From Saccharospirillum sp. (GTDB lineage Bacteria; Pseudomonadota; Gammaproteobacteria; Pseudomonadales; Natronospirillaceae), in assembly GCA_018402545.1 (NCBI GenBank), contig JAGYIL010000001.1, positions 2,170,001 through 2,234,000 of the forward strand: a DNA stretch of 64,000 nt. The letters are read 5' to 3'. Positions 11,698 to 43,573 of the stretch are shown here, one piece after another; the first letter of the stretch is position 1; each line of letters begins with the position of its first letter. Position numbers and translations under genes: made by a program. The notes beneath the pieces were generated by a model. That model was not told the origin of the DNA and did no database searches. It saw nothing but the letters and a program-made list of their open reading frames with translations.

Positions 11698-11718
11698 TTC
11701 GACGCAACTCAGTGGTGT

Positions 11719-12375: not shown

Positions 12376-12384
12376 GATATTGAA

Positions 12385-14602: not shown

Positions 14603-15607
14603 ATGAACTTGAGCTACCCACATCGCTTCAGCGTAGCCCCCATGATGGACTGGACGACCAGTGAGTGCCGTCAGTTTCACCGGCTGCTGACACGTCGTGC
14701 CCTGCTTTATACCGAAATGGTTACGACGGGCGCGCTCATTCATGGTCAGCGCGACCGTTTTCTGGCCTATACCGAATCTGAGCACCCGCTGGCCCTGCAA
14801 CTGGGCGGTTCCGATGCACGAGATCTGGCCACCTGCGCCAAAATGGCGGAACAATGGGGCTATGATGAGGTCAATCTGAACGCAGGCTGCCCTTCCGACC
14901 GGGTCCAGAATGGCATGATTGGCGCGATACTCATGGCGCACGGCGCCCTGGTCCGCGACGGCCTCAAAGCCATGCGCGACGCGGTATCCCTGCCCATCAC
15001 ACTGAAGCATCGCATTGGTATTGACGATTACGACAGCTACGAATTCCTGCGCGACTTTGTCGGCATCACCGCCGAGTCCGGCTGCGACACCTACATAGTC
15101 CATGCACGCAAGGCTATTCTCAGCGGCCTCAGCCCCAAGGAAAACCGGGAGATACCGCCGCTCGACTACGATCGGGTCAGGCAGTTGAAGGCTGATTTCC
15201 CTGCCCTGAACATCATTATCAACGGCGGGCTCAAGGATCATGCCGCCTGCCTCTCACTGCTCGATGAAGGCCTCGATGGTGTCATGCTCGGACGCGAGGC
15301 CTACCAGAACCCATTGATTCTGCAATCGGTGGACCCAACCTACTATGGTCAGGCTCCGGCCCTGAAATCCCAGTCAGCGCTGGTCTCTGCGTATGTTCAA
15401 TGGGTTGACCAACACCTGCAGCAAGGCAAACCTTTGAAATATGCCCTGAGACATACTCTGGGTTTATTTCAGGGACAGCCGGGTGCACGGCGTTTCCGCC
15501 GCGTATTGAGTGAAGGCATGCATAAACCCGGTGCCAGCCTGGAATTGCTGGAGCGGGCACTGTCAGAAGTTGAATTGCTTGATGCTGAACCCCTGGAACA
15601 CGCCTGA
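14603..15607 (+). CDS. dusA: tRNA-dihydrouridine synthase A
   Basis: FMN enzyme that reduces uridine in the tRNA D-loop (U20/U20a). It shows the TIM-barrel start [11 protein letters not shown], the catalytic Cys96 in [14 protein letters not shown] and [22 protein letters not shown]. The start is uncertain. ATG at 14603 is directly abutted by GGAG, too close to serve as its ribosome site, whereas TTG at 14609 is ideally spaced from the same GGAG and gives [13 protein letters not shown]. ATGs at 14588 and 14546 lack a site. The enzyme call does not depend on the start. talB follows 67 bases later, the same pairing as in Pseudomonas. Confidence 0.92.
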
Positions 15608-15674
15608 CGGGGGGCACCAGCACTTATCCCAGCCACCATCACTGGCCCCCGGGGTCAGCAAAAAGAGAGTCGAC

Positions 15675-16601
15675 ATGAGCAAACTTGAACAGCTGAAAGA
15701 ATACACCGTCATCGTCGCAGATACCGGCGAACTCGAGTCCATCAAGAAGTTCAAACCCCAGGACGCGACCACCAACCCCTCGCTGGTTTTAAAAGCCGTG
15801 GAAAGCGGGCTCTACGACGATCTGATCAAGCGTTGCATGGCTAACGCCAGCAATTTTGACGATGGTATCGACCGGCTGATCACCTCGATCGGTCAGGAAA
15901 TCCTTCAGGAAGTACCTGGCTACGTATCCACAGAAGTGGATGCGCGCCTGTCGTTCGATACCGAGGCCACCCTCGCCAAAGCCCATCGACTGATTGAATT
16001 GTACGAAGAAGCAGGCTGGAGCCGCGACCGCATTCTGATCAAGATCGCCAGTACCTGGGAAGGCATTCAGGCCGCCCGCGTCCTGGAAAAAGAAGGTATT
16101 CATTGCAACATGACCCTCTTGTTCAGCATGGAACAGGCCCAGGCGTGCGCCGATGCTGGCGCAACCCTGATTTCTCCTTTTGTCGGCCGCATTATGGACT
16201 GGTACAAAAAAGACACAGGCCAGACCTACACCGGTGAAAACGACCCCGGCGTCATCAGTGTTCGCGAGATCTTCAAGCACTACAAAGAACACGGCTACCC
16301 AACCATTGTGATGGGTGCCAGCTTCCGCAACACCGGAGAAATTGAAGCCCTGGCCGGTTGCGATCGCCTGACCATCAGCCCCGCCCTGCTGGAAGAGTTG
16401 AGTAACGACAGCGGTGAACTGAAACAGGCTCTGGTCGCACCAGCGGCGACGGGCAAGCAACCGGAAGCGATCAGTGAATCTGATTTCCGCCTGGGCATGA
16501 ACAATAACCCGATGGCGACCGAGAAACTCGCGGAAGGTATTCGCAAGTTCATAGAAGACCAAATTAAGATGGAAGGCATCATCAAGGCCCATTCGGCCTG
16601 A
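15675..16601 (+). CDS. tal: Transaldolase
   Basis: Pentose-phosphate enzyme moving a dihydroxyacetone unit between sugar phosphates through a Schiff base. The 308 residues show TVVAD-like [32 protein letters not shown] and the Schiff-base Lys123 in [13 protein letters not shown] at 15675 is preceded by AGAGAG; the longer in-frame reading upstream overlaps dusA and is not needed. A strong terminator follows at once, so dusA-tal is likely a transcription unit that ends here. Confidence 0.96.
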
Positions 16602-16609
16602 AAACACCT

Positions 16610-16636
16610 GCGGGCCCTATCGGGCCCGCTTTCTTA
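16610..16636 (+). terminator. Intrinsic terminator of tal
   Basis: A perfect 8-bp stem GCGGGCCC / GGGCCCGC with loop TATC is followed by TTTCTT on the plus strand, eight bases after the tal stop. Confidence 0.88.
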
Positions 16637-16728
16637 CCCTGCAAAGACCCGTCCTGCGCCACCTATCCCCGCCTGTCTGCCCTGCAATGAATACCTTGGC
16701 AACTCCAGCCACATCCACTATGCTGAAG

Positions 16729-16746
16729 ACCATGCTGTAGATAACG
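16729..16746 (+). promoter_or_regulatory. Candidate Ter (replication-arrest) site before the tus-like gene
   Basis: ACCATGCTGTAGATAACG matches the E. coli TerB core AGTATGTTGTAACTAAAG at 12 of 18 positions by eye, including ATG-TGTA and the TAA. It lies 9 bases before the start of the Tus-like gene, just where TerB lies before E. coli tus and mediates autorepression. Bases outside the core differ, and Ter consensus outside enterics is unknown to me, so this is inference. Confidence 0.35.
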
Positions 16747-16754
16747 GTATAAGT

Positions 16755-17612
16755 ATGAGTGAAAAACAACTCTTTGATGAGTTCGAGCGATTACGACGCT
16801 CAATTTCTGCATTTTCCCGTTCGGTTCATCAGTACGACAGCGCGCATTGGATTGCACCCTGGAACGGAGCCGTGCGGGCGCCCGACCTAGAGGATTTGCT
16901 ACTGGATCTCTGGTATCAGGACGACCAGGACGGTCGGGAAACCCGGGTCTACCCGGGGCTGATTGCCCTGAACCGAGAACAGATAACGCTCGCGGCTGAA
17001 GTGAATATCGCCAAAGACCGGTTTCGCAACCGGGTACAAGCGATAAAAACAGCCGATTCCGTTCACTGGCGTGAGCTCCAGGGCCAACTGGCACGACGTT
17101 ATAAGGGGCTTAACGAAGCCCTGGGCCGGGAAGGCATGACCCGCTTGCACCTGAAGCAGGTTTTCCGGCACATTCCTCTGGTGGTTAAACGTCCCGATCG
17201 AGTTGGCTTTAGTTGGTACACCAGCGGACGTTCCATCCAGAAAATCACCAAAAAAGAGGCCTGGGAGCGGTTGATCAAACTCAATACCGAATCGGCACAC
17301 ATCCGCATCCAGATGGAGCGCCTGGCTTCATTGCCAGATTCCGAACCCCTGGCCCGTGTGCAGAAACAGGCGCCGGTACTGCGTGCCAACCTTGTCTTTG
17401 CCGATGGACGTCGTAAATCACTGAATGTCTCGCTGCCGCTATTGTTTCCCAGTCAGGGCATCAACGAACTGCCCGACTTCTCAATCCCCACAGCCACCCC
17501 TCCCGGTGAACGACAGCGGCTGGTTCGCAGCGACAACCGGCTGGAAGACGACGCCTTTTTGCCTTCCATTCGTGTTCATCGCTACGTGCAGCCCAAAAGA
17601 GGGGTTTACTGA
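16755..17612 (+). CDS. tus: Tus-like DNA replication terminus site-binding protein
   Basis: Tus binds Ter sites and blocks replication forks from one side near the terminus. This 285-residue protein (E. coli Tus 309) aligns with Tus by eye over most of its length: a RVYPGLIALN segment (64-73) against Tus RLPGVLCYQ, a basic helix around 83-97, GFSWYTSGRSIQKITKKEA (151-169) against the Tus RFGWANKHIIKNL region, and a C-terminal IRVHRYVQ against the final LHLYVAD strand. It is basic, as a DNA-binding protein should be. It sits alone between the tal terminator and a bidirectional terminator. The name rests on remembered sequence, not a search. Confidence 0.78.
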   Translation: MSEKQLFDEFERLRRSISAFSRSVHQYDSAHWIAPWNGAVRAPDLEDLLLDLWYQDDQDGRETRVYPGLIALNREQITLAAEVNIAKDRFRNRVQAIKTADSVHWRELQGQLARRYKGLNEALGREGMTRLHLKQVFRHIPLVVKRPDRVGFSWYTSGRSIQKITKKEAWERLIKLNTESAHIRIQMERLASLPDSEPLARVQKQAPVLRANLVFADGRRKSLNVSLPLLFPSQGINELPDFSIPTATPPGERQRLVRSDNRLEDDAFLPSIRVHRYVQPKRGVY

Positions 17613-17626
17613 TTACAGAAACAAAA

Positions 17627-17648
17627 AAAGCAGCCCTGAGGCTGCTTT
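17627..17648. terminator. Bidirectional terminator between tus and sthA
   Basis: AAAGCAGCC-CTGA-GGCTGCTTT is a perfect 9-bp stem with a run of A on the left and T on the right, so it can end both the plus-strand tus gene and the minus-strand sthA gene. Confidence 0.88.
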
Positions 17649-17676
17649 ATAAACCGATAAGACAGGGTAACCTGCG

Positions 17677-19071
17677 TCAAAAAATACGGTTCAAGCCGTT
17701 CAGCGCCGCCACCCGATAAGCTTCGGCCATAGTCGGATAATTGAACGTATGTTCGATGAAGTACTGAATGTTATTGCCACCATTCTTTTGCGCCATAATG
17801 GCCTGCCCAATGTGCAGAATTTCCGCGGCCTGGTCGCCGAAACAATGGATCCCCAGCAGCTCGAGCGTATCCCGGTGGAACAATAACTTCAGCATCCCAA
17901 CGTCTTCGCCGGTGATTTGGGCCCGGGCCGTGTCTTTGAAATAGGCTTTGCCCACTTCATAGGGCACTTTTGCCTGCGTCAGTTCGCGTTCGGTTTTACC
18001 CACCGACGAAATTTCCGGAATGGTATAAATGCCAGTGGGCACATCGTTAATGTGCCGGTAGGTATTGTTATCGACGATCACGCCAGAAGCACTGCGGCCC
18101 TGATCGTAGGCTGCACTGGCCAGACTCGGCCAGCCAATGACATCACCAACGGCATAAATGTGCGACACCGAGGTCCGGTAAAATTCATCCACCTCCAGTT
18201 GCCCCCGCCTATTGGCGGTCAGGCCCGCAGCGGCCATGTTAAGCTTGTCGGTGTTACCGGAACGCCCGTTGGCCCACATGAAGGCATCGGCCTTGATCTT
18301 TTTGCCGGAAGCAAGTGTCAGCACAATATGGTCATCGAAACCATCTACGCTGACAAATTCCTCATTGTGCCGCACCAGTACACCGTGACCACGAAGGTGG
18401 TAACTCAGGCCATCGGAAATTTCATCGTCCATAAAGGCCAGCAGGCGGTCACCAGGGTTGATCAGATCCACCTTACAACCCAGACCGTTGAAAATCGACG
18501 CATACTCACTGCCGATAACGCCGGCGCCATAAATCACCAGATGCCTGGGTGTTTCTGTGGAATCAAGAATGGTATCGCTGTCGAACAGCCGGGGATGGTT
18601 AAAATCAACTTCAGGTGGCCGGTACGGCCGAGAACCGGTGGCTACGATGATCTCATGGGCTGACAGAATATCGGCCTGATCGTCTGAGCGGTCTACCTTG
18701 ATGGTATGCGGATCGATAAAGCTGGCAACACCGTAATACAAATCAACGCCATTACGGCTATAGAAACGGGCTCGCATTGACACTTGTTTGTCAATTACCC
18801 GGTGTGCCGATTCCCGCACCTGACTGTACGACAACCATTTCTGTTCGGATATATGCCGGAACATCGGGCTGCGATTAAACTGCATGACCTGGTTAACCGC
18901 ATGGCGCAGTGCCTTGGAGGGTATCGTGCCCTGATGCGTGCAGTTGCCACCCACCAGATGACGCAGGTCGACAACGGCCACCTTTTTACCCGCTTTTGCG
19001 GCGTTCATGGCCGCGCTCTCACCGGCAGGTCCACTGCCGATGATCACCAGATCGTATTGTGCTTCCGACAT
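17677..19071 (-). CDS. sthA: Soluble pyridine nucleotide transhydrogenase
   Basis: Flavoprotein that equilibrates NADPH and NADH in the cytoplasm. The 464 residues have the FAD dinucleotide fold [19 protein letters not shown] near the N-terminus, [17 protein letters not shown] in place of the redox disulfide of lipoamide dehydrogenases, a second NAD(P) fold ([16 protein letters not shown]) and the C-terminal dimerisation domain. AAGGAG precedes the ATG. It lies directly downstream of the nqr genes on the same strand, as in Pseudomonas, so NADH supply and use are encoded together. Confidence 0.95.
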
Positions 19072-19120
19072 GCTTACTCCTTAGAAACTGTCTGAGCAGG
19101 GTGATAACCGATCACCCTCA

Positions 19121-19363
19121 TTACCGGGTTGCGTCTACACCCAGATCAGACAGGGCTTTTTGCCGGGCCGCTTTTCGGGCGGACTTGATTTCAGTATCGC
19201 ACTTGCCTTTATCGCCCCCGCAAACGTCACACTCGGCTTCCATACCCACGGCAGCCATGCCGCCACAAGAGCCTTTAATTGGCTGACGCCCGAAGATCAC
19301 GCCCACCGCCATTGCTGCAATCACCAGCAGCATGAATACAAACACAGCGAAAAAGGTCGCCAT
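19121..19363 (-). CDS. nqrM: Na+-NQR maturation factor NqrM
   Basis: Small membrane protein needed to assemble Na+-translocating NADH:quinone reductase, thought to deliver iron for the Fe site between NqrD and NqrE. The 80 residues have one transmembrane helix (about 4-24) followed by a Cys-rich domain with Cys33, Cys45, Cys48 and Cys55 and a basic tail. ATG at 19363 is the start because GGAGG sits five bases upstream; the TTG twelve bases earlier overlaps that ribosome site. It follows apbE in the nqr operon. Confidence 0.92.
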   Translation of the reverse strand: MATFFAVFVFMLLVIAAMAVGVIFGRQPIKGSCGGMAAVGMEAECDVCGGDKGKCDTEIKSARKAARQKALSDLGVDATR

Positions 19364-19442
19364 AAGCACCTCCAATTAGGCCGGTACCGGTTGTCGGTTA
19401 AAAATTCGAACCAGATCCGGTACAGGCCAGGTTTACTGCAGT

Positions 19443-20471
19443 TTAGTTGCTTTGCTCAAACAGTGCCTCGAATCGCTCGGACAGGGTTTCCGTATCCCCC
19501 TCCCCGTTACGCTGAATCAGGTAGACAGCCAGATCCTGATCGCTGGCTAGTGTCATCGCTGCTTCGGCGCCCAGCACCATAAAGGCGGTAGCGTAGGCAT
19601 CGCTCAATACACTGCGGTCACCAATAACGGTCGCGGAAACCAGATCATGCCGAATAGGATACCCCGTCTGCGGATCCAGGGTGTGAGAGTAGCGCATCCC
19701 GTCCTGCTCGAAAAAATTCCGGTAATCTCCGCTGGTTGCCATGGAGCCATCGGAGACTTCCAGTATTTTATAAGCAGAGCGGCGTTCGCTGTCGGGCGAT
19801 TCTATGGCTACACGCCAGGCTTCACCTTCTGGCTTGGTGCCGGCAAAACGCATCTCACCACCGATTTCCACCAGATAATTATTGATGCCTCTGGCTTCCA
19901 GCATGTCGGCCACCTGATCAACTGCATAGCCCTTGGCGATCGCCGATAAATCCAGTTCGCGTGGTTCCGATTTACGCAACTTGTTGGCGGTATTGTCGAC
20001 TTCAATGGCTTGCCAGCCGACCATGGCCAATGCTGCTTCAATCTCGTCTTCAGTCGGCACCTGATCCGTGGTTTCCTTGGGACCAAAGCCCCACAGATCA
20101 ACCAGAGGCCCTATGGTCGGATCAAAGGCACCGTTACTGGCTTCAGCAACCTCCAGTGCCAGACTGACCACTTCGGCCGTCATGGGGGAGACGGCAATCC
20201 AGCCGTCGACTGGCGATTCATTAAACCGGGATACGTCAGAACGTGGCAAGTAGGTGGACATCGCCAGGTTTACATCTTCAATGACCGTTCTTACTTCCCC
20301 GTCCAGCGCCCGGGCTTCAGACTCCTTGGCGACAATACTGACGGTGTAACTGGTTCCCATGGAGTAGCCGCTGAGTTTGTGAACCTCGGCAGCGCCCCAA
20401 CCAGAACAGCCCGAGAGTAGCCATGCCACCAGGCACAGCCACACTGCAGGCTTTTTCAAGGCATAAAACAT
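19443..20471 (-). CDS. apbE: FAD:protein FMN transferase ApbE (Na+-NQR flavinylation)
   Basis: Periplasmic lipoprotein that transfers FMN from FAD onto Thr of NqrB and NqrC. The 342 residues start with a lipoprotein signal (LLSGC, Cys22), then GYSMGTSYTVSIV and the flavin/metal-binding block DLSAIAKGYAVDQVAD, with SHTLDPQTGYPI near the C-terminus. ATG at 20471 has GGAGA at proper distance, whereas a longer frame would run into nqrF. The gene is 25 bases after nqrF. A second ApbE paralogue lies at 35.5-36.4 kb. Confidence 0.94.
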   Translation of the reverse strand: MFYALKKPAVWLCLVAWLLSGCSGWGAAEVHKLSGYSMGTSYTVSIVAKESEARALDGEVRTVIEDVNLAMSTYLPRSDVSRFNESPVDGWIAVSPMTAEVVSLALEVAEASNGAFDPTIGPLVDLWGFGPKETTDQVPTEDEIEAALAMVGWQAIEVDNTANKLRKSEPRELDLSAIAKGYAVDQVADMLEARGINNYLVEIGGEMRFAGTKPEGEAWRVAIESPDSERRSAYKILEVSDGSMATSGDYRNFFEQDGMRYSHTLDPQTGYPIRHDLVSATVIGDRSVLSDAYATAFMVLGAEAAMTLASDQDLAVYLIQRNGEGDTETLSERFEALFEQSN

Positions 20472-33094: not shown

Positions 33095-33607
33095 TCAAGA
33101 GCGTTTCAACTGGGCCTGATATTCCATCAGCGCCGTGGCTTCATAAGTCATCTGCAACAAACGGGCGTCCTCACCAGCCCGATGATGGCTGAGCGCATGC
33201 TCGGACCTAATGCGTAGCTTGGTGTCATCCCACACCGAGAGCTGGTACTCGGTGAGTATGCGCGGCAGGGTTTCCAGCCGGAACGTCATGGTCCGGCGGG
33301 CACAATAATACAACAGTGCCAACCAGCCGGAATCGAAACCCCAGCCATCGCTGTACAAAATCTGACCTTCCAGCATTTCATTCAGATGATCGGCGATGCT
33401 ATCGACACCTAAACCGTCCCGAACCAGTTGTTCCCGGGTAATCCCATGCAATTGGGCTGCCTTGTCGTCCCAGTGATCCCAGTCAGACTCGGGTCTTACC
33501 AGCCAGGACATCGCTTCGCCGGATTCCGTTGCCACCCCTATTTCGATCGGATAACTGCCCCGCCCAAATCCGGAGGCTTCAATGTCGATAATGCCTGGCA
33601 ATAACAT
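33095..33607 (-). CDS. DnaQ-like 3'-5' exonuclease domain protein
   Basis: A 170-residue single-domain DEDDh exonuclease. Motifs are IIDIEASGFG (Asp8 and Glu10), SDGWGFDSGWLALL as the Exo II region, and SHHRAGEDARLLQ with the Exo III His and Asp. It is distinct from DnaQ at 6-7 kb. Similar small proteins are widespread as transcript- or DNA-trimming enzymes of unknown substrate. It lies 115 bases downstream of dsbD on the same strand. Confidence 0.82.
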   Translation of the reverse strand: MLLPGIIDIEASGFGRGSYPIEIGVATESGEAMSWLVRPESDWDHWDDKAAQLHGITREQLVRDGLGVDSIADHLNEMLEGQILYSDGWGFDSGWLALLYYCARRTMTFRLETLPRILTEYQLSVWDDTKLRIRSEHALSHHRAGEDARLLQMTYEATALMEYQAQLKRS

Positions 33608-33722: not shown

Positions 33723-35444
33723 TCAGGATGCGGAAAAAGTGCGCTCAATCAACCCAGGCGTTAACACCTGGGGTAACAGCTGCACCGGTCCACCGTCACC
33801 GGGAAAGTAAGCATAGAGAGGAACGCCCTGGCGGTCAAAGCGTTCGATCAGCGCATCGACTTCAGGCGAGGGGTTGGTCCAGTCGGCTTTCATCAGCTGA
33901 ACCCCCTGTTGTTTGACCAGCGTTTCGAACCGGTCGCCCGACAAAGCCACGCGCTCGTTTGCTTTGCAGGTGATGCACCAGGCCGCCGTAACATCCAGAA
34001 AGACGGGCTGGCCGAGCATCTGGTAACTGTCGAGCATGGCGGCATCGTAAGGCTGCCAGATATCAACCTGCTGGCGCTGGTCGAAGACCATCACAAAGGC
34101 AATCGCCACAAATGCAACCCGAAGGCCGCGTTTTAGGAAGCGAGCAACCAGCCCGTTGCCAGAGGTCACAGCCAGCGCTGGCCAAATTGCCATGGTCAGC
34201 AGAATCAGGCCGATACCCACCGACAACAGCACCGTAGTCCCCTGAATTTCAATCAATACCCAAAGCAGCCAGAGCACCGTGGCGAACAAGGGAAACGCCA
34301 TTAGCTGACGAAAAACGTTCATCCAGGCACCGGGCTTCGGCAGTCGGCGTGCCAGGCCCGGCAAGTAGGTAATTGCCAGTATGGGCAAGGCCATACCAAA
34401 ACCCATGGTCGCGAAAATCAGTAACCCCACGGCGGGCGGTTGCAGCAGGGCAAAGCCGATTGCCGACCCCATAAACGGGGCGGTGCACGGTGTGGCCACC
34501 AGCGTTGCCAGAACGCCGGTAAAGAAGGTACCGGAGGCACCGGGTTTTTGCGTCAGGGTTTGACCGGCACCCATTAACCGCTGGCCTACCTCAACGTAAC
34601 CGGCCATGGCCAGTGCCAGGACATAGAACAGCATGATCAGGCCGGCAACAAAAATCGGCGACTGTAGCTGAAAGCCCCAGCCTACCCAGGTTCCAAACTG
34701 CCGCAACAGCAACAATACAGCCGCAACCGCCATAAAACTGAGCACCACGCCCAGGGTGTAGATCCAGCCATGCAGCCGCGAATGATGGGTGTCTTGCCCC
34801 CACTGGGCCAGGTGCATTGCCTTGAGCGACAGCACCGGAAACACGCAGGGCATGAGATTGAGAACCATGCCACCAAGCAGCGCAAATACCAGTGCCAGCG
34901 CCAGCGACAGACTGGCTACATCGGAGCCTGCCTGCCCTTCGGTATCAAAGGCGCTGCGAGCGGGGGCAGAACCAGCTGCGGTGGTGGCTGCGGTGCCTGA
35001 TACCGGTGTGGCCATGGCCTCGCCATTAATATCAAACACCCGGGTCTGGGGCGGGTAACACAAACCGGCATCGGCGCAACCCTGATAGACAACTTCAATA
35101 ACACCCTGATCGGCCAATACCGCGTAGTCTGCGGTCATGGTGTTGTAATAGACCGGCATGATTTCCTTGAACGTATCGTCGTACTTTTCCAATACATTGA
35201 AAGACAGCTGGCCTTCACCGACTTCAGCACCGTCACGGGTATTTACCCGGTGCTGATCCCGGTACAGGTAGTATTCATCGGCGATGTCCCAGTGCAAATT
35301 CAACTGGTCGCCGTTGCGCTCAACGGTTAACTCGAAGGCTTCGTCCACCGGTAAAAACTCCGATGCAACGGCATTGCCCAGTGTTGCCATGCTTAACAGC
35401 ATGACAGTACAGAGCATTGAAATTCTGGTCAGGTGCTTAATCAT
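33723..35444 (-). CDS. dsbD: Thiol:disulfide interchange protein DsbD
   Basis: Carries reducing electrons from cytoplasmic thioredoxin across the inner membrane to periplasmic acceptors. The 573 residues have a signal peptide, an N-terminal periplasmic domain with its Cys pair in GCADAGLCYPP, eight hydrophobic segments (about 175-430) with membrane cysteines in NLMPCVFPVLSLK and ATPCTAPFMGS, and a C-terminal thioredoxin domain with CITC. It is the last gene of the same-strand run 33.7-42.1 kb, 38 bases after the apbE paralogue, so it probably serves that system in addition to or instead of general disulfide and cytochrome work (inference). Confidence 0.94.
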   Translation of the reverse strand: MIKHLTRISMLCTVMLLSMATLGNAVASEFLPVDEAFELTVERNGDQLNLHWDIADEYYLYRDQHRVNTRDGAEVGEGQLSFNVLEKYDDTFKEIMPVYYNTMTADYAVLADQGVIEVVYQGCADAGLCYPPQTRVFDINGEAMATPVSGTAATTAAGSAPARSAFDTEGQAGSDVASLSLALALVFALLGGMVLNLMPCVFPVLSLKAMHLAQWGQDTHHSRLHGWIYTLGVVLSFMAVAAVLLLLRQFGTWVGWGFQLQSPIFVAGLIMLFYVLALAMAGYVEVGQRLMGAGQTLTQKPGASGTFFTGVLATLVATPCTAPFMGSAIGFALLQPPAVGLLIFATMGFGMALPILAITYLPGLARRLPKPGAWMNVFRQLMAFPLFATVLWLLWVLIEIQGTTVLLSVGIGLILLTMAIWPALAVTSGNGLVARFLKRGLRVAFVAIAFVMVFDQRQQVDIWQPYDAAMLDSYQMLGQPVFLDVTAAWCITCKANERVALSGDRFETLVKQQGVQLMKADWTNPSPEVDALIERFDRQGVPLYAYFPGDGGPVQLLPQVLTPGLIERTFSAS

Positions 35445-35482
35445 CGGGTAGTAACCTTGAGCCTTTTTGCAGTAAACAGTGT

Positions 35483-36376
35483 TTAAGGAGTGACCAGCGT
35501 ACCAGACACATTCATAGCCGCATCACATAGTAAAAAAGGTACTTCCAGCTTCACCAGCCAGCTTTCGGCATCTTTACCTTTGAGCATGGCAATGGTGGCA
35601 AGGCTGCCGGCCATAATACAGTGGTCGGCAATTACGGTTACGGCGCGCGGTGCATCCGTAACAGGCCAACCGGTGTGCGGGTTCAGAATATGACTGTAAC
35701 GCACACCCTTGTGGGTAAACCCCCGCTCGTAATCCCCGCTGCTGGCCAAGCCACCCTGGGTCAGCGCAACGCTGGCCATGGCCTGACCGGTACCTCGCGG
35801 GTCTCTTACACCCAACATCCAGGGGCGGCCATCTGGCCGTGCTCCGGTTACTGCAATGTCGCCAGCCAGGTTGGCCATGCCGCGACATCCGGCTTCAGCC
35901 ATCAGCGCCACCAGGCGGTCGGCAGCAAACTCTTTCACGATGCCACCGAAGTCGAGCTCCATGCCGGGTTCCAGTCGCAACTGCTCTCCGTCCCATTCAA
36001 CCCGCTCCCAACCAACAGCGGCCAGAGCCGCTGTTATCTCGGCCGGGTCGGGGATGCGTTGCTGCCTGAAATCCCAGGCCCGCCGCAGAGCACCTGCCGT
36101 AACATCAAAAACGCCGTCGCTGAGCCGATAGCAATGGTCGGCATAATTCAGTAACCCTGCACACTCTGCATCGACAGACTGAACGATACCCGCCTTCCGG
36201 TTAATAACACTGACCAGGCTGTCTGGCCGGTAACGGGAATAACGCTGTTCCAGCCGGACGACTTCGTCTTTCAGGCGCTGCAGCAAGCTATCCGGAGCAC
36301 CAAAAACGGCCAGGTCACAGGGGCCACCCATGGCCTCGAAATGGTACTGTCGGGGCTTGGGATCAGGTTCAGTCAT
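35483..36376 (-). CDS. Second ApbE-family FAD:protein FMN transferase
   Basis: A 297-residue ApbE paralogue distinct from the nqr-linked one. It shows the opening FEAMGGPCDLAVFG, DVTAGALRRAWDF, the block ELDFGGIVKEFAADRLVALM and SHILNPHTGWPVTDAP, so the flavin and metal sites look intact. Unlike the nqr-linked copy it has no signal peptide or lipobox, which implies a cytoplasmic location or an unannotated export route. Start: ATG at 36376, with two GTG codons just upstream as alternatives. No partner in this run carries the usual S-G-A-T flavinylation motif, so its target is unknown. Confidence 0.88.
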   Translation of the reverse strand: MTEPDPKPRQYHFEAMGGPCDLAVFGAPDSLLQRLKDEVVRLEQRYSRYRPDSLVSVINRKAGIVQSVDAECAGLLNYADHCYRLSDGVFDVTAGALRRAWDFRQQRIPDPAEITAALAAVGWERVEWDGEQLRLEPGMELDFGGIVKEFAADRLVALMAEAGCRGMANLAGDIAVTGARPDGRPWMLGVRDPRGTGQAMASVALTQGGLASSGDYERGFTHKGVRYSHILNPHTGWPVTDAPRAVTVIADHCIMAGSLATIAMLKGKDAESWLVKLEVPFLLCDAAMNVSGTLVTP

Positions 36377-36452
36377 CACCACATGCCTGTGATCATTGCT
36401 TCAGCCGACGAGTTGCCATGCCACCCTCCCCTGACATCCAGGCACGCTCCGG

Positions 36453-37697
36453 TCAAAAACGGAAATCCAGACCCGTTGTCAGTCGCCAAAAGGCTGGCAA
36501 ACCCGGCGTTTCATCATCGAAGTTAAACCCGTATGAGGGGTTTGCAACATAACGCTCGCCGGTGATGGTCCAGGAGTAGTTTCTAAAATCAGTTTTTAGT
36601 GCCAGCCCCATGCTCAGCGCCCCATAATTCGACAGCCGGGGATCACTGGAATAATAGGTGGTTGTGTCGGCCGTGTAGTAAGGGTCTGCGACACCATGAT
36701 CGGGAATCTCGTAAAAATAGGCCTGAGTCTGCTGGTAATAACGCAACGAAGGTATCAGCTGAAAATCAACTTCATTGCGTACGAACCAATCCCACCCGGG
36801 TGCGTAGTTCTGGTACCAGGACAGATCAGTTGTTGTCGACCAGATATCCCAACTATCGGCCAGAAAACGGAAATCCAGATGCAAGGCGCCATCGATGCCC
36901 GGGAAATACTTGCGACCACCCGCCGAGAGCGTTACCAGGGTTCGGCTGTCCGGACGAATGTCGTAAGGCACCTCGGCCCCCGCCCGCTCGCGGTAAGGAT
37001 CCGACATGTAGCCGGAACGATGGGTCACACTGACACCCGCCTGAACCACGGTATTCATATCAATGATCTGGCTGATGCCTTCAAAGATGGAGGCCTGCCA
37101 TTTGGTCTGGTCTTTGGCGGCAAAACGCCCCGGTGTGTTGGCCTGCTGATCGGCCGGATCGGAATAATCCTGAGTCGGATCCAGGAAATCATACCCCAGC
37201 GTCGCCCCGCCGCTAAGCGTGGTCATCTGATCATTGATTTGCAGCGACCCATCGATGCCGGAACTCAGCGCCAGATAATCCTGTTCAACGGATATACCAG
37301 CCTGTGCGCCAATATCAGCTTGCGACCAGTAATAACGGCCTGTCCCATACAAATCGAAACGGCGCTCAATGGATGCGCCAGCCATATACACCCGGGTGAC
37401 GTCTTCGTCATCCAGGTAGGTGTATACCGGAGAGGCACCCGACATGGTTTCGAAGCTGCCTTCGACATCCCAGCTCATGTTGGAACCATAAGGCATCATC
37501 AGATAAAACTGATGCACCTGAATGGTGTAACGTTCCTGAGCGCCACCGTCGGTTCGGCTTTCCGGGGAATCATCTTCGGTGTAATAAGTGTACTGATACC
37601 CTGCTTCGGACTCTGCCGGGGCGGCCGCCTGTGCCATTGAAACCAGCCCGGGAATGGCCAGTGCACTGCGGGCCAACTGCTTTACTGCTTCAGACAT
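36453..37697 (-). CDS. DUF3570 outer-membrane beta-barrel-like protein
   Basis: The 414 residues begin with a signal-like segment ending near MAQAAA, then many alternating aromatic/polar strands rich in Tyr, Trp and Asp, and finish with the terminal phenylalanine GLDFRF typical of outer-membrane barrels. I recognise it as the DUF3570 family, usually encoded next to DUF4266 and ApbE proteins. GAGG precedes the ATG by seven bases. A channel or docking barrel for the adjacent lipoproteins is plausible but inferred; no biochemical function is known to me. Confidence 0.82.
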   Translation of the reverse strand: MSEAVKQLARSALAIPGLVSMAQAAAPAESEAGYQYTYYTEDDSPESRTDGGAQERYTIQVHQFYLMMPYGSNMSWDVEGSFETMSGASPVYTYLDDEDVTRVYMAGASIERRFDLYGTGRYYWSQADIGAQAGISVEQDYLALSSGIDGSLQINDQMTTLSGGATLGYDFLDPTQDYSDPADQQANTPGRFAAKDQTKWQASIFEGISQIIDMNTVVQAGVSVTHRSGYMSDPYRERAGAEVPYDIRPDSRTLVTLSAGGRKYFPGIDGALHLDFRFLADSWDIWSTTTDLSWYQNYAPGWDWFVRNEVDFQLIPSLRYYQQTQAYFYEIPDHGVADPYYTADTTTYYSSDPRLSNYGALSMGLALKTDFRNYSWTITGERYVANPSYGFNFDDETPGLPAFWRLTTGLDFRF

Positions 37698-37720
37698 CCG
37701 TTATCCTCAATGCTTAACCT

Positions 37721-37957
37721 TTAATTGCATCCGCAACCACCACCAGCAGCGGCACCGCCACCCGATGACGCTTCTTTGGAAAAATAAACATGGCCGTTCA
37801 GTGTCGATTCAAGCCGGTTCGGAGACCAGCTCATTTCCTCTTTGGCCAGTACACCCCGTTCCCAGGGTTGCACTGTCGTACAGCCGCCCAGCGCAACGAG
37901 GCAGAGCATGGTCAACCCGCTCGCTTTTGCTGCCTTTACCAGTGTTGTGTATGTCAT
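37721..37957 (-). CDS. DUF4266 small lipoprotein with C-terminal CGC tail
   Basis: A 78-residue protein with a lipoprotein signal (ALGGC, Cys26) and the DUF4266 core PWERGVLAKEEM. It ends in a flexible Gly/Ala-rich tail, SSGGGAAAGGGCGCN, whose Cys75 and Cys77 are the only cysteines besides the lipidated one. The tail could bind metal, form a vicinal-type disulfide or be modified; none of this is proven. Start ATG at 37957; GTG six bases earlier is possible. It lies 23 bases before the DUF3570 gene and next to apbE and dsbD, so thiol redox is a reasonable theme. Confidence 0.85.
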   Translation of the reverse strand: MTYTTLVKAAKASGLTMLCLVALGGCTTVQPWERGVLAKEEMSWSPNRLESTLNGHVYFSKEASSGGGAAAGGGCGCN

Positions 37958-38016
37958 CTGCACTATCCGTTTACCGCAGGCAGTGCGCCCCGGGGCACAC
38001 TGCCAAAGGATTGTTG

Positions 38017-39645
38017 TTAACCGAGTATCGGGAGATCTGCGTCAACGTCAATGGGAAAACGTTGTGAAAAGGCATGGTTCTGAATATTACCGGCTGCCCG
38101 TAATTGCCGGTGCAGGTGAGCAGGCGTCATCCGGATACCGCTGCTGTTCGAAGCCGTTGGCACAAGCCGGCCACCCTGAACCTGAACATTTCGCGGCCCG
38201 ACCAGTGCATCCGTCGCATTGACTACGCTGCCGCCAGCCACATCACGCCCCAGCAACACATAGCTGGTAACAGCCCAGTGATCTTTGCCATTACCGCCGT
38301 TGAACCAGGGCGTACGACCGAAGTCCGAACCCAGAATAACCGTTGTCTTATCTGTAATATTGTAGACATCCATCGCCTGCCACAGGTAATGCAAGTCGAC
38401 CAGGACATCTCGAATTCTCGGGAACTGATTGTTGTCATGGTTGTTGTGCGTATCGAACCCACCAAACCCGATCTGCATGGATGAGGCCATGCCCGCGTCC
38501 ATCGCAGCAGCGCCGATGCGCATCTGGCGTTGGCGGCTATTACGGGCCCGGTCATCCAGGGCTTTCTGGGGAGTACCCTCTGGAGGCGAGGCCAACTGGG
38601 CGGCAACACCGGAGAAAGCAACGCCTTCATCGCGCACCATATACAACTGGCTCTTCAAACGCACCCGTCTGGGCAGTGTTTCTTTCTCGGCCAGCAATTG
38701 TCGGCGCTGATCTTTCGCCTGTTCGATCAGTGAGTCCAGGCCGTTTTGCAGGTAATTGCCTTCCGGGTTGGCCAGTGCATTAAATACCCCCACGTCACTG
38801 GCGCTGGACCGTGCAACCAGGCCAGCCGTTTCGTTATTGCCACCGCCATTGGTGATGTAGGCCAGAGGCATTTCCGCCCCCTTGGCCGCTGCATACAAAG
38901 CACTGAAATCAGGGTATGACGTATCCATGCTGCCGGTGTCCGCAAAGCGGGTGCCGGTATCGTGGCCGTTGGTGCGATTATCTACCCCGTTCAACACGCG
39001 AACGTGCTGGGCATACAGGCAGTAAAAGGCATCATAAACAAATAAGTTGGCAGCCATATTGGTATCGTTACGGACCAGGCCGTTGAACAACTCGGGGGAA
39101 TCGGCAACCAGGGTGTCAAAATTGATGGTATTGACCGATCCTTCCAGAATGGCGGCGGCGTTGCTACGTATGGTTGCCGCATTGGTGGATTTTTGCGTTG
39201 CCCAACTAAAGCCACCTTCAATGTTCGCGGTCAGCACATCGCCCGCTATGGTACCGGCTAGCATCCGCTGAATCATCTCGATAGGCAGGCCTGAATTCTC
39301 GGTGCCCTGATCACCACTATTAAAGGTGCCAAGGTAAGGCGCATAGCGCATATCTTCATCGATACCCGTTTCCAGCGCGACATCGACAGCGCGCCGAACG
39401 GAACCTTCGCTGTAACGATTGACGGGCGAGCCACCTTCCCTTGCACCCGGGTCGATGGCCTGGCGCAACCGGTTACCTTTAGGGTCACAGAGGGAGGTCG
39501 GATCCCAGCCTCCTCCCAGATGCAGGAATACGAAATACCGATTCACGGGCGTCGATTCAGCATAAGCCCGTTGCGTCATGACCATGGGACTGCATACGGC
39601 CATTCCGGTTGCACTGAGTGTTTTAATAAAATCACGGCGTTTCAT
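38017..39645 (-). CDS. DUF1501 family protein with Tat signal
   Basis: The 542-residue protein opens with a twin-arginine signal, KRRDFIKTLSATGMAV, ending near QRAYA, so it is exported folded, usually meaning a bound cofactor or metal. The body resembles DUF1501, distantly related to the alkaline phosphatase/sulfatase fold: FLHLGGGWDPTSLCDP near the start and VILGSDFGRTPWFNGGNGKDHW near the end, a likely metal-site region. It starts 11 bases after the DUF1588-type cytochrome gene, the common pairing for this family. Substrate unknown. Confidence 0.85.
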   Translation of the reverse strand: MKRRDFIKTLSATGMAVCSPMVMTQRAYAESTPVNRYFVFLHLGGGWDPTSLCDPKGNRLRQAIDPGAREGGSPVNRYSEGSVRRAVDVALETGIDEDMRYAPYLGTFNSGDQGTENSGLPIEMIQRMLAGTIAGDVLTANIEGGFSWATQKSTNAATIRSNAAAILEGSVNTINFDTLVADSPELFNGLVRNDTNMAANLFVYDAFYCLYAQHVRVLNGVDNRTNGHDTGTRFADTGSMDTSYPDFSALYAAAKGAEMPLAYITNGGGNNETAGLVARSSASDVGVFNALANPEGNYLQNGLDSLIEQAKDQRRQLLAEKETLPRRVRLKSQLYMVRDEGVAFSGVAAQLASPPEGTPQKALDDRARNSRQRQMRIGAAAMDAGMASSMQIGFGGFDTHNNHDNNQFPRIRDVLVDLHYLWQAMDVYNITDKTTVILGSDFGRTPWFNGGNGKDHWAVTSYVLLGRDVAGGSVVNATDALVGPRNVQVQGGRLVPTASNSSGIRMTPAHLHRQLRAAGNIQNHAFSQRFPIDVDADLPILG

Positions 39646-39656
39646 CTGTGTGACCC

Positions 39657-42101
39657 TTATCCGTAAATAAAGCGATAGTCGTTCATCAGATACACCAGCA
39701 CTGCAAACCAGGCGTGTTCTGCATTACTCGATACACTACAACCGGACTGAATACCTTCGGTTACTACCGTGCTGAATAGCTCGAATGCGATATCCACATC
39801 TTCACTGCTCAGCTCAACTTCTTCGTGTAGCAATGCCAGATAGAGCGACTGAATCGTCGTGCGGACAGCCAGTGCTTCTGCTCTGCGGTTTATTCCGGAT
39901 TCGCTTTCAAGGTCTGTCGAGGTTTCTACCAGGCGGAACAAATGACGTTCATTGCGTGGCATTCTAAACTCGTTTCGCACAACATCGCAGGACTCTTCCA
40001 CGGCCATGGCTTGCGTCAGTGTTGCAATAATACCACTGGCCGATTCGGCGTCTTCAAGCACTTCGCGTGAATCTTTACCGCCCATAAAACGACGACCGGT
40101 GCGGGAATAGAGGTTCACCGTGCCGTTGTTCCGCCAGCCTCCCGAATTAATGGCACGCAGTTTTTGATTCAGCAAATGCGCCGGAATCAGACGCGCAGTA
40201 CCCAGGCTGTCGTATTCATCAGACATACCCGGCTGATACAAACCACGGGCCCGGTAATAACCACTCTTGGTAATGGCATACACCAGCTCTTTGATGTCAT
40301 AGCCGGCCGCCGAGAACTCGGATGCAGCATTGGTAATCAACCGGGCTTGTTGGGCGTAGGCATCACGATAGGACTGAGGTGAATCCGGGTTCGGAGCACC
40401 CATTATTGGCTGACCGATCAAACCCCTGACTACAATCTGGCTAATGCCCCGGGCATAGGCGGCATCTTGCGCAATGGTTTCACCCAACCACTGAACTTCG
40501 CGACCGTTGTAGTTGTTGCTGGTACTGAATTGATCGAAACCGGCGTTCAATTGCGACCAGCCAACTTCAACACCGGGTGTCAGAGGAACATCCCCCTGCC
40601 TCAGCACCTGCAGCTCTTCATCGGTCTGATACACACCATCGAGGCGAAAGTGGCTAAACGCCTCCGCAACCGGGTCCATGATCTTATGACAAACCACACA
40701 ATCTGCATTGGTTCGCGTCGGGTCGCTTACCCCAACCGAAGAGTTGGATGCTTCATCCAGTTCCAGCGCAGCAACGTCACGATTGCCTTCTATGGCCAGC
40801 AGATCCTTGCCTCCGAAGAACCAGTAGACCATGCGCGCACGATGGCGATGACGGTTGGTATCCATCGCCGTGAACTTGTTCAGAAAAACCAGATCCGTCA
40901 GTACACCTGAGTGCGGAATACCGGAATTCTTAACATTGCCACCCACATCGTTGTAGTAAAGCTGTACCGCCCGAATATCACGCGGATCATAGGGGAAGGC
41001 TTCCATAACGTACTGGGCTGTGAGATTGCCATTGGTGCGCGTTGAGTTACCGTTGGTATCACGCCCAACCAGATCAGCGACATCCAGATAGTTGTTCAGC
41101 GATTCGACATTTGGCCAGGTTTCCCATTCAGGTTCCGGCAAAACCGGCAACGCGCCATTGCTGGCACTGGCATCGGGGTTAACTGCCCGGACGTTCGGCC
41201 GGTCGGTATCTCCGGCAAAGGCATGCCAGGAGAAGGCGTTGGCGACGGTGTATTTGCCGCTGACCAGTTCACGGAAATCCCGGTTGTTGCGTGCCAGATA
41301 TTCGACGAACATTAGGGGTTTGCGTGACAGGGCTTCATCTGAGAAATGGCGCAGATAGGCGGAGCTTAGCGGAAAATCGGCCATATCGTCGTTGTCGGGA
41401 TCAAGCACCCGGTCATACCAGTCCATTGCATCAAAAATGTCCTGGTTGTCGTTTTCGTTCACATCCCGGTTGTAGACTTCACCCGGGTTACCCCCATTGG
41501 AGCGACGGTACTGATCGGTCTGGAAGCTGTCGTTGAACACGTCTTTCAACCGTTCATAGAAGTAATCTTCCTCCATGAAGCCAGCCACCACTTCCCGCTC
41601 GCCTTCCAGACTTTCTGTAAAACGGGTGACTTCTTCAGGTTCAGGCAAGCGACCAGCCAGCTCAAACGCCAGCTTGTAGACCGCCTCGCGCGGCGTCAGA
41701 GTCGCAACACCGGGAATTGCCCGGTCAACACTGCCTCTGGTGGATTCATTGAAAGCTACATATATAAATTCGGCGACGTCCTGTGCATTTTGGCCGCGCA
41801 ACGGATTGGACGCACTGGGCATGTCCTTTTTAATCTTGGCAATCAGCGACTCGGTACTGCCGCAGGAGGCACAGCCGACCAGTGGGCCGCCAGAGCCGCC
41901 CGCGCCACTGCCACCATGACAGGAGGCACATTCTTTGGCATAGAGTGACTTGCCGGCCTCGTTCAGGGAACGGGCTGCGGTATCATCACCGTCGAAATCC
42001 TGGGCACAGCCGACCAGCATGGTCAGCAGACCGGCCAGTGCCAGTCCACCCAATCGCCGGACCCACCCGGAAACATCACTGTTTGATTGCTGCAATTCCA
42101 T
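39657..42101 (-). CDS. DUF1592/DUF1588-type cytochrome c lipoprotein
   Basis: An 814-residue exported protein with a lipoprotein signal (MLVGC, Cys32) and two c-type haem motifs: CASCH (58-62), in a Gly-rich loop, and CVVCH (468-472), followed by KIMDP as in the DUF1588 family. The architecture recalls the planctomycete-type cytochrome proteins that pair with DUF1501 or DUF1552 partners. CASCG at 77-81 lacks the His and is not a haem site. ATG at 42101 has GGAGCG seven bases upstream. First gene of the run; likely a periplasmic electron carrier or oxidoreductase. Domain naming is from memory. Confidence 0.8.
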   Translation of the reverse strand: MELQQSNSDVSGWVRRLGGLALAGLLTMLVGCAQDFDGDDTAARSLNEAGKSLYAKECASCHGGSGAGGSGGPLVGCASCGSTESLIAKIKKDMPSASNPLRGQNAQDVAEFIYVAFNESTRGSVDRAIPGVATLTPREAVYKLAFELAGRLPEPEEVTRFTESLEGEREVVAGFMEEDYFYERLKDVFNDSFQTDQYRRSNGGNPGEVYNRDVNENDNQDIFDAMDWYDRVLDPDNDDMADFPLSSAYLRHFSDEALSRKPLMFVEYLARNNRDFRELVSGKYTVANAFSWHAFAGDTDRPNVRAVNPDASASNGALPVLPEPEWETWPNVESLNNYLDVADLVGRDTNGNSTRTNGNLTAQYVMEAFPYDPRDIRAVQLYYNDVGGNVKNSGIPHSGVLTDLVFLNKFTAMDTNRHRHRARMVYWFFGGKDLLAIEGNRDVAALELDEASNSSVGVSDPTRTNADCVVCHKIMDPVAEAFSHFRLDGVYQTDEELQVLRQGDVPLTPGVEVGWSQLNAGFDQFSTSNNYNGREVQWLGETIAQDAAYARGISQIVVRGLIGQPIMGAPNPDSPQSYRDAYAQQARLITNAASEFSAAGYDIKELVYAITKSGYYRARGLYQPGMSDEYDSLGTARLIPAHLLNQKLRAINSGGWRNNGTVNLYSRTGRRFMGGKDSREVLEDAESASGIIATLTQAMAVEESCDVVRNEFRMPRNERHLFRLVETSTDLESESGINRRAEALAVRTTIQSLYLALLHEEVELSSEDVDIAFELFSTVVTEGIQSGCSVSSNAEHAWFAVLVYLMNDYRFIYG

Positions 42102-42226: not shown

Positions 42227-42376
42227 CCGATAAATTTGATCCCCTTCCGCAAGAGTGACCCTGTACGTCGCTTATTGCCGCGCACCCGTCATTAGTCGGA
42301 GTCCTAAGGGCAAACCGGGTTGGAGGTGAGCCCGGCCCGACCTATACTGAATGCTGAAATTCAAGAGGAAACACGA

Positions 42377-43573
42377 ATGTCTCTGGCAACCGGCCTGCTG
42401 CAGTGGCAGTGGTGGCACCCACTGGTTTATACGCTGATTCTGACTCACATCACGATTATTGCTGTTACCGTCTTTCTGCACCGGCATTCAGCCCACAGAG
42501 CACTGCAATTGCACCCGACCGTGAAACACGCTTTCCGGTTCTGGCTGTGGCTGACCACCTCAATCAAAACAAAGGAGTGGACGGCTATTCACCGGCGACA
42601 TCACTCGACCTGTGAAACCGAACAGGACCCTCACAGCCCGCAAGTGCTGGGCATAAAAAAAGTGTTGCTGGAAGGCTCTGAACTCTACAAGCAAGCCGCC
42701 GACCCGGCGACGCTGTCGCGCTATGGTAATGGCACCCCGGACGACTGGCTGGAGCGCAAGGTATACAGCCACCCGGTGGGCAATTATTTGGGCATCGCCC
42801 TGATGGCTGGCATCAATATCGCCCTGTTCGGCCCCATCGGCCTGACCATCTGGGCTGTGCAAATGCTGTGGATTCCGATCTGGGCTGCGGGTGTTATCAA
42901 TGGCCTGGCGCACTACTGGGGTTACCGGAATTTTGAAAGCCCCGATGCCGCGCGCAATCTGGTGCCCATCGCCGCCTTCATTGGTGGTGAAGAGTTGCAC
43001 AACAATCACCACACCTACCCCAACTCCGCCCGGCTCTCTTCGCGCTGGTATGAATTCGACATAGGCTGGTTTTACATCCGAACCCTTCAGTTGATGGGCC
43101 TGGCGTGGGACATTCGCCGTGGCCCGGTGGTGCACAGGGTAGCCAGCAAATCCCTGATCGACGCCGATACCGCTCTGGCAGCGGCCAACGACCGTTTTCG
43201 CATCATGGCCCAGTTCAAGCGGCAGGTACTGCGACGCACCATTCGAAGTGACCGCCGCATCAAAGCATCGGCCGGGGCGCATTATCGTCGACTGGTCCTG
43301 TGGCTGTCGCAAAATCAGGAGCACTGGGACGATGCCCGCCATGATTGGATGAACACTTTCTTCGAAAAACATCCGGAACTGCGCACGCTGCACAGCCTGA
43401 AAGAAGAGCTCAATCACATCTGGTCGCTGCGCACCCGCTCGAAAGAGGAATTGATGGCGGCGTTCAAAGCCTGGTGCGAAAAAGCCGATGCAGCTGGTGT
43501 AGAGGCGCTCTCGGAGTTCTCCGCCATGCTGCGTCAATACACCCTGAAGCCAGCCGCGATTGGCGCCCGATGA
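42377..43573 (+). CDS. Fatty-acid (acyl-chain) desaturase, DesA/delta-9 type
   Basis: Membrane di-iron desaturase introducing a double bond into acyl chains. The 398 residues carry the three histidine boxes HRHSAHR, HRRHH and HNNHH and hydrophobic helices between them. A C-terminal helical extension of about 110 residues (from about 290) follows the catalytic part, as in Pseudomonas DesA; it looks charged and cytoplasmic. ATG at 42377 follows AGAGGAA; a TTG further upstream is less likely. The next gene overlaps its stop. Confidence 0.88.
   Translation: MSLATGLLQWQWWHPLVYTLILTHITIIAVTVFLHRHSAHRALQLHPTVKHAFRFWLWLTTSIKTKEWTAIHRRHHSTCETEQDPHSPQVLGIKKVLLEGSELYKQAADPATLSRYGNGTPDDWLERKVYSHPVGNYLGIALMAGINIALFGPIGLTIWAVQMLWIPIWAAGVINGLAHYWGYRNFESPDAARNLVPIAAFIGGEELHNNHHTYPNSARLSSRWYEFDIGWFYIRTLQLMGLAWDIRRGPVVHRVASKSLIDADTALAAANDRFRIMAQFKRQVLRRTIRSDRRIKASAGAHYRRLVLWLSQNQEHWDDARHDWMNTFFEKHPELRTLHSLKEELNHIWSLRTRSKEELMAAFKAWCEKADAAGVEALSEFSAMLRQYTLKPAAIGAR

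Follow-up and report, generated by a model that had tools for sequence, protein, structure and literature searches.

Does a gene cluster that unites a haem lipoprotein and its DUF1501 partner with a set of flavin and thiol genes encode one electron-transfer system of the cell envelope, or two units that share an operon? The question is raised by a window of 64,000 nucleotides (the whole stretch of DNA analysed; C1:2170001-2234000 of a 4.25-Mb Saccharospirillum sp. genome, GenBank assembly GCA_018402545.1, contig JAGYIL010000001.1), in which six minus-strand genes run from 42101 to 33723 in the order CytLP (as we call the two-haem lipoprotein), DUF1501, DUF4266, DUF3570, ApbE and DsbD. An earlier reading of the letters alone (hereafter the sequence-only reading) had proposed six same-strand genes of these families in this order with gaps of 11-77 bases, and Pfam matches together with the open reading frames (ORFs) confirmed the genes; the gaps are 11, 53, 23, 70 and 38 bases (i.e., 11-70) when the longest-ORF starts are taken, and alternative later start codons widen them to values close to the earlier 77. 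We find that the cluster is real, conserved and joined in several lineages, and that it should be classed as a variant form of a system already described, not as a new kind; gene content, gene order, motifs, conservation and the recurrence of the joined state across several lineages are shown at the sequence level. The genes and the elements used below are:

39657..42101, minus strand: CytLP, an exported lipoprotein whose N-terminus is a class I cytochrome c domain and which also has a DUF1549-like part and, bearing a second CxxCH, a DUF1588 (PSCyt3) part
41763..41960, minus strand: haem domain at the N-terminus of CytLP (Cytochrome_CBB3 in Pfam, residues 64-129 in the 830-residue reading), motif CASCH, with a second CxxC at 41862-41873
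40620..40910, minus strand: DUF1588/PSCyt3 region of CytLP, second haem motif CVVCH
38017..39645, minus strand: DUF1501 protein, long form of the CytLP-partner subtype, with the twin-arginine-like start MKRRDFIK
37721..37963, minus strand: DUF4266 small lipoprotein, C-terminal CxC at 37727-37735
36453..37697, minus strand: DUF3570 protein, a predicted 16-strand outer-membrane barrel, of an ApbE substrate class (PMC8238504)
37431..37442, minus strand: first flavinylation motif of DUF3570, SGAS (86-89), presumed acceptor Ser89
37371..37382, minus strand: second, flavinylation-like motif of DUF3570, AGAS (106-109), Ser109
35483..36382, minus strand: ApbE flavin transferase, judged by eye to be without a signal peptide
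33723..35444, minus strand: DsbD, with DsbD_N, DsbD_TM and a C-terminal thioredoxin-like domain (Thioredoxin_7) at 33801-34049

The two halves are joined within the family of the window genome. The DUF1501 subtype that partners CytLP occurs in 12 of the 22 genomes of the family sample, and its long form is accompanied by all six genes, in the same order and on one strand, at nine of nine loci (the window, L032-L035 and L076-L079), with ApbE adjoining DUF3570 every time. The first five gene kinds are also found together in four further loci. L083, in genome G388 of the same family, holds five of the six genes, without DsbD; L071 (G010) and L072 (G233), which come from outside the family and from orders sampled with one and two genomes, respectively, carry a thioredoxin/redoxin-type gene between DUF1501 and DUF4266, and L071 has ApbE ahead of CytLP; in L037 (Sulfurimonas MAG313), the contig ends within CytLP and a protein of 186 residues with two CxxCH motifs lies in between. 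L037 is probably a transferred cluster, because the DUF1501 subtype was present in 1 of the 150 genomes of its phylum sample (this Sulfurimonas). In the sample of the window's own phylum, a single genome of 398, that of the window, has the subtype. A DUF1501 tree with 71 rows requires four changes of the joined state, of which well-supported branches force at least three; with shuffled labels the figure is 12.2. Part of the changes on the tree could be losses.

A further link between the halves lies in the haem domain. A second CxxC within 28 residues after the first haem motif was found in 11 of 12 joined and 2 of 53 unjoined CytLPs in which the region is present (the cut L037 and five unjoined CytLPs without the region were left out), a contrast that is not independent evidence, since carriers are mostly related and near-copies were counted. 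At L227 (G372, same family) a separate 261-residue cytochrome precedes DUF4266, DUF3570, ApbE and DsbD, and its first half is the same CxxCH...CxxC domain (phmmer against a tiny search space, full-sequence expectation value (E) 6.5e-11 for the L080 domain); no CytLP or DUF1501 was found in the 10 kb read at this locus, and G372 has three CytLP-DUF1501 pairs elsewhere (L080-L082). The haem/CxxC domain thus occurs both fused within CytLP and free ahead of the same flavin genes. On a DUF3570 tree of 104 proteins, which took in 9 of the 13 joined loci, eight of the nine joined rows fall within one clade of 15 (FastTree support 99), the ninth, L037, being on a long branch. A neighbour with at least two haem motifs within 6 kb was seen at 7 of 9 counted clade loci vs 3 of 41 other loci of the core type defined below (Fisher P 3.8e-5), in a count that includes loci chosen because they were joined or found through DUF1501.

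The last four genes of the cluster are a member of the DsbD-ApbE-DUF3570-DUF4266 flavinylation system (Meheust et al. 2021, eLife; PMC8238504). That study showed experimentally that a Chlorobium DUF3570 protein is flavinylated by its ApbE at two [S/T]GA[S/T] motifs, and it counted 285 DsbD-containing flavinylation clusters, 227 with DUF3570, 221 with DUF4266 and 183 with a PF13899 thioredoxin-like protein; the function of the DUF3570 class is given as uncertain, with electron transfer as the published view (PMC8238504). The window cluster resembles these clusters in its ApbE, its DUF3570 with [S/T]GA[S/T]-like sites, its DUF4266 with a C-terminal CxC, its DsbD, its PF13899 domain and their common neighbourhood. 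Unlike them, it is headed by a two-haem lipoprotein and a Tat-like DUF1501 gene, its PF13899 part is the C-terminal domain of DsbD rather than a separate gene, and its ApbE lacks a signal peptide by eye. The view of the sequence-only reading, that no described system has this composition, holds for the whole as far as we searched, and does not hold for the last four genes. Neither DUF1501 nor DUF1588 is mentioned in the main text of PMC8238504, and a literature search found nothing that names both; the union of the flavin module with CytLP-DUF1501 is new as far as such searches reach. The electron-transfer role that had been proposed gains from the published view of the DUF3570 part and from the haem/CxxC domain shared between the parts, and covalent flavins, absent from the earlier proposal, are the likely electron carriers.

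DUF1501 (E 4.8e-20), DUF4266 (E 4.6e-22), DUF3570 (E 7.4e-47) and ApbE (E 1.1e-70) matched their Pfam models, and CytLP, which may start at 42149 (longest ORF) or at 42101 (the earlier choice), matched Cytochrome_CBB3 and PSCyt3/DUF1588 (27.8 bits vs a cut-off of 27), with a weak DUF1549 match under the cut-off. Its CxxCH motifs stand at residues 74-78 and 484-488, the additional CxxC at 93-96, and the two cysteines and the histidine of the CVVCH at 484-488 are invariant across a 10-row alignment; against sequences of the PDB, it matched small or c-type cytochromes with its N-terminal part only. Lipoboxes were read by eye in CytLP (LVGC) and in DUF4266 (LGGC), and the C-terminal CxC of the latter is present, in the ending GGCGC, in 12 of 12 aligned members. 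The Tat-like start of DUF1501 was also judged by eye (Pfam TAT_signal E 0.036, under its cut-off), and the nearest named relative of this protein is that of S. impatiens (84% identical). We take the DUF1501 family to belong to the alkaline phosphatase superfamily; a DUF1501 profile found no credible match among PDB sequences (best E 0.12), and the Asp/His set that is invariant in ten rows (D398, H400, D455, H456, H510 and H512) would be compatible with a metal site. The six DsbD cysteines (Cys 123/129, 200/320 and 490/493) are presumably the catalytic positions, by likeness to E. coli DsbD.

For DUF3570, an AlphaFold model has 16 strands (mean predicted local distance difference test, pLDDT, 67.7), and the 50 matches listed by a Foldseek search of the PDB are all outer-membrane barrels or complexes with one, an identity that we take from their names; a DUF3570 profile found no match among PDB sequences up to E 1. 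Ser89 and Ser109 are placed on the neighbouring strands 3 and 4 of the model, and our guess is that they would be extracellular if the usual barrel topology holds, in a region where pLDDT is <50. The second motif reads SGAS in L033, L035, L071, L072 and L076. The lack of a signal peptide on ApbE extends to the 12 other joined loci (by eye, taking later starts wherever the longest frame overlaps the preceding gene), and a cytosolic ApbE has been described in Klebsiella (PMC12052999).

The explanation that we favour, tentatively and at somewhat less than even confidence, is that the cluster is a variant of the DsbD-DUF3570-DUF4266-ApbE system whose flavin carrier is coupled to haem, giving thiol-flavin-haem delivery at the outer membrane. 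The chemistry of DsbD is established, and the protein moves electrons outward. From there we infer the order and direction of the carriers, the location of the flavins, the part played by the extra CxxC and the DUF1501 reaction as follows. Cytosolic thioredoxin would reduce DsbD, whose periplasmic thiol domains would pass electrons to the CxC lipoprotein DUF4266, and this in turn would reduce one or two flavin mononucleotides (FMN) attached by ApbE to the DUF3570 barrel, attachment before export being probable because ApbE has no signal peptide. The flavins, or thiols directly, may then reduce the N-terminal haem of CytLP, with the extra CxxC as a possible entry point, and the second haem together with the exported DUF1501 partner would act on a substrate, either periplasmic or at the surface of the cell. 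Where a lineage lacks the flavin genes, the pair must obtain or give electrons in another way. A fuller version, to which we give a low probability, is a three-carrier relay in the outer membrane, where DsbD and the CxC lipoprotein feed a doubly flavinylated barrel (its flavins extracellular, having been attached in the cytoplasm and carried via Sec and Bam), from which a thiol/haem domain of a surface lipoprotein leads to a DUF1501 metalloenzyme.

If true, this would give covalent flavin the outer-membrane role that multihaem conduits have elsewhere, and both the DUF3570 and the PSCyt/DUF1501 proteins would gain a function. MtrCAB-type porin-cytochrome conduits likewise combine an outer-membrane barrel with haem proteins; the window cluster differs in its 16-strand model and in CytLP having two haem motifs in place of decahaem proteins, and a Pfam scan of the cluster gave no MtrB match, the barrel being DUF3570 only. 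A likeness of idea only exists to cytochrome c6A of plants and algae, which is likewise a class I cytochrome c and has an additional cysteine pair, the spacing of which presumably differs from that in the CytLP domain. This soluble thylakoid protein, unlike CytLP in that respect, has a disulfide proposed to exchange electrons with the haem (PMC5526843). PSCyt-type proteins are abundant and have no known function (PMC5615132), and the joined clusters make them and the DUF3570 class candidate partners and hint at the use to which the electrons of the module are put. Both functional questions become testable in cultured relatives (Reinekea, Saccharospirillum), which are not known to be harmful.

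Several observations weigh against the wiring of flavin to haem in one system. The CytLP-DUF1501 pair is often found alone: in another phylum (that of G393), where 59 of 235 genomes have the DUF1501 subtype, CytLP lies directly ahead of DUF1501 at 40 of the 40 loci fetched (a subset of the places listed for this phylum), and none of these stretches of 9-18 kb contains DUF3570, DUF4266, ApbE or DsbD. The second pair of the window genome itself (L075) has no flavin genes, nor do the fetched short-form DUF1501 copies of the family, L083 excepted, and the pair was present at 5 of 100 annotated DUF3570 loci, two of which had been included because of the pair. The extra CxxC is missing from the joined L083 and present in L080 and L085, which are unjoined at that locus. 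A neighbour with several haem motifs was found at none of the six annotated loci with a second type of DUF1501 (see below), and a DUF1501 partner therefore does not imply haem. Among the structural models, that of CytLP is too poor for a fold search (mean pLDDT 51.8), that of DUF3570 is weakest (pLDDT <50) around the flavin sites, and the second motif of the window protein is imperfect (AGAS). Lastly, a minus-strand promoter-like site (9/12; at chance level) at 38051-38024, just ahead of DUF4266, could from its sequence be the start of a second transcript and leaves room for two transcripts. The claim that the two pairs plus DsbD form one system is supported within the family, where they make up a single conserved cluster (9/9), and by the four further joined loci with at least three tree changes; the pair does not need the flavin genes where it stands alone (40/40 and L075). 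In the neighbourhoods checked, the consistent split into DUF1588-DUF1501 and DUF4266-DUF3570-ApbE units, named beforehand as the pattern that would speak against one system, was seen in most lineages and not in the family.

In a rival explanation, which we regard as possible and on the unlikely side, CytLP-DUF1501 and the flavin/thiol genes are two independent units in one operon, each with a function of its own and only co-regulated (e.g., by oxygen or metal). Both units are common alone, and G388 keeps a DUF4266-DUF3570-DsbD stretch followed by an exonuclease-like gene, without the haem pair and without ApbE (L230), and has on another contig a pair with its own DUF4266-DUF3570-ApbE (L083); the promoter-like site ahead of DUF4266 fits as well. 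Yet the joined state appears at separate places of the DUF1501 tree, a different lipoprotein-DUF1501 pair lies next to DUF3570 in further genomes, and the haem/CxxC domain occurs both fused to CytLP and free ahead of the flavin genes, none of which is required by co-regulation alone.

There are three further explanations. The thiol arm might serve maturation, with DsbD and thioredoxin-like proteins holding the CxxCH cysteines of CytLP, or else the CxC in DUF4266, in the reduced state that cofactor attachment needs; in bacteria, members of the DsbD family and their thioredoxin-like partners do supply reductant for haem attachment (PMC5526843), and there is a c-type cytochrome in the cluster. 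We consider this improbable, as DUF3570 has a thioredoxin-like gene in its company at 37 of 47 core loci, yet at 38 of the 41 core loci outside the clade no neighbour is multi-haem, and flavin and ApbE would be left unexplained. A Pfam scan of the six genes and four neighbours showed no ccm or ccs genes beside DsbD. Metal handling, to which we attach an equally small chance, would have iron or copper reduced by the flavins in the outer membrane region, the CxC of DUF4266 bind the metal and CytLP-DUF1501 process a metal-containing substrate. It draws on the GGCGC ending in 12 of 12 aligned DUF4266 members, on the 25 DUF3570-type clusters reported to hold a VIT1 iron transporter and on the ties of other flavinylation systems to iron uptake (PMC8238504), and a weak argument against it is that the six genes include no transporter, receptor or regulator, the flanks of joined loci having been read by eye only. 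More improbable still is a reverse flow, in which CytLP-DUF1501 oxidise a substrate, the flavin barrel is the acceptor and DsbD serves thiols. The flavin domain or a cytochrome of published flavinylated systems can work with oxidases and not just with reductases (PMC8238504), and the gene after DUF1501 in L074 resembles flavocytochrome c sulfide dehydrogenase, an oxidative enzyme; against this, DsbD, with its outward transfer of electrons, sits in all nine family clusters.

Comparison of the cluster with S. impatiens showed that purifying selection, as judged from the sequences, acts on all six genes, with non-synonymous divergence (dN) of 0.03-0.16, synonymous divergence (dS) of 0.9-2.5 (near saturation) and mostly silent changes. 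No minus-strand terminator-like site was found in the five gaps, and both terminator-like sites (6 vs 9.2) and promoter-like sites (4 vs 5.5) were rarer than in shuffles.

How often the two families meet was assessed with the Pfam model of DUF1501 (PF07394) in the class sample, where DUF3570 is widespread (95 of the 369 sampled genomes); 80 of these 95 genomes were covered. Of 45 DUF1501 places (46 rows, one gene being split), 12, in 12 genomes, were no more than 10 kb from a DUF3570, whereas random placement gives an expectation of 0.41; several of the 45 places are under the Pfam cut-off, and among the twelve near DUF3570 only G212:C55 is. Three of these twelve genes are of the CytLP type and nine of another type. 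Beside the nine, a haem-less lipoprotein of ~550 residues was found by clustering in five (L147, L148, L149, L178 and L180) and by eye in two (L231 and L233), and no such gene was identified beside the DUF1501 of L150 and L232. At E 1e-10, the class sample gave six strong DUF1501 loci (>300 bits), three of them beside DUF3570. That the coupling is limited to the CytLP type of DUF1501, as 29 weaker rows suggested (none beside DUF3570 by eye), was overturned by the nine more found near DUF3570 with the Pfam model.

We annotated 100 DUF3570 loci, namely 95 stretches plus L071, L072 and the window (together covering all 95 class-sample genomes, three of them twice) and L037 and L083 from outside. 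They comprise 47 core loci (thioredoxin-like gene, DUF4266, DUF3570 and often ApbE; including L222, in which clustering found no DUF3570), 42 of a large type, 5 of the window type and 6 of the second DUF1501 type. ApbE was present in 32/47, 8/42, 5/5 and 6/6 of these types, respectively, and the strict flavinylation motif in 37/47, 11/42, 4/5 and 5/6; the family clustering undercounts DUF4266, whose short ORFs are lost to overlapping ones, and the signal-peptide rule used for the annotated loci is crude and was not relied on. Within the family, DUF3570 occurs in 16 of 22 genomes and hence is also common without the pair.

The large type (L137, L138, L140, L141, L143-L145 and 35 more) holds DUF3570, a thioredoxin-like gene and often DUF4266 among genes for SH3/outer-membrane, outer-membrane, coiled-coil and tetratricopeptide-repeat proteins. 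A lipoprotein of ~900 residues with CxxCH is present in 34 of the 42 loci, nearly always with two or three such motifs, and a neighbour with at least two haem motifs in 33 of the 42; the one such lipoprotein scanned, from L137, has a hydrazine synthase alpha-like domain (PF18582). Both ApbE and the strict flavinylation motif are lacking at 25 of the 42 loci, and none of the papers listed by a literature search concerned such a cluster by its title. The second DUF1501 type (L147, L148, L149, L151, L178 and L180; by eye also L229, L231 and L233) places a haem-less lipoprotein of ~540-620 residues and a distant DUF1501 beside DUF3570. The scanned members of this lipoprotein gave no Pfam match (L147, L149) and no NCBIfam match (L149), and the idea that the ~550-residue protein is a relative of CytLP was dropped, as a profile of three rows only detected no relation. 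Elsewhere, L146 (G052) has two DUF4266-DUF3570 copies in tandem on a short contig that ends within the second; the DUF3570 open frames of L002, L012 and L024 (G249, G174 and G323) reach ~900 residues, twice the usual length; and L135 (G318) has frames with 12 and 24 CxxCH motifs at 2-3942, beside DUF4266-DUF3570-ApbE.

The pair on its own has described counterparts. DUF1501 is probably one of the two families that adjoin PSCyt genes in Verrucomicrobia. The PSCyt (DUF1588/DUF1549) genes of Planctomycetes and Verrucomicrobia are like CytLP in their DUF1588 with CxxCH; unlike them, the window lipoprotein carries a CBB3-type cytochrome domain at its front and shares a cluster with the flavin module. 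In Verrucomicrobia, PSCyt2/PSCyt3 genes usually adjoin two families of unknown genes, and their function is given as not known, with carbohydrates suggested (PMC5615132). A plasmid search for DUF1501 returned five distant records, and the two fetched each have a CytLP-DUF1501 pair and no flavin genes. In L074 (G141), the flavoprotein directly after DUF1501 that resembles flavocytochrome c sulfide dehydrogenase lies at 8596-9891, and the CytLP frame (11193-20000) has at least 2935 residues and four CxxCH motifs; in L072 (G233, a draft genome), CytLP (1738-4050) is broken into two adjoining frames close to its second haem motif.

Two neighbours of the cluster in the window complete the picture. 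An exonuclease-like gene (33095-33607; RNase_T, under its cut-off) follows DsbD and has the same position in all nine six-gene loci, in the relatives at four loci by search and at four by eye. On the other side, 42320-43573 encodes a protein that appears desaturase-like by eye, the C-terminal part of which (290-407 of 417 residues) matches the transposase family DDE_Tnp_ISL3 (3e-11).

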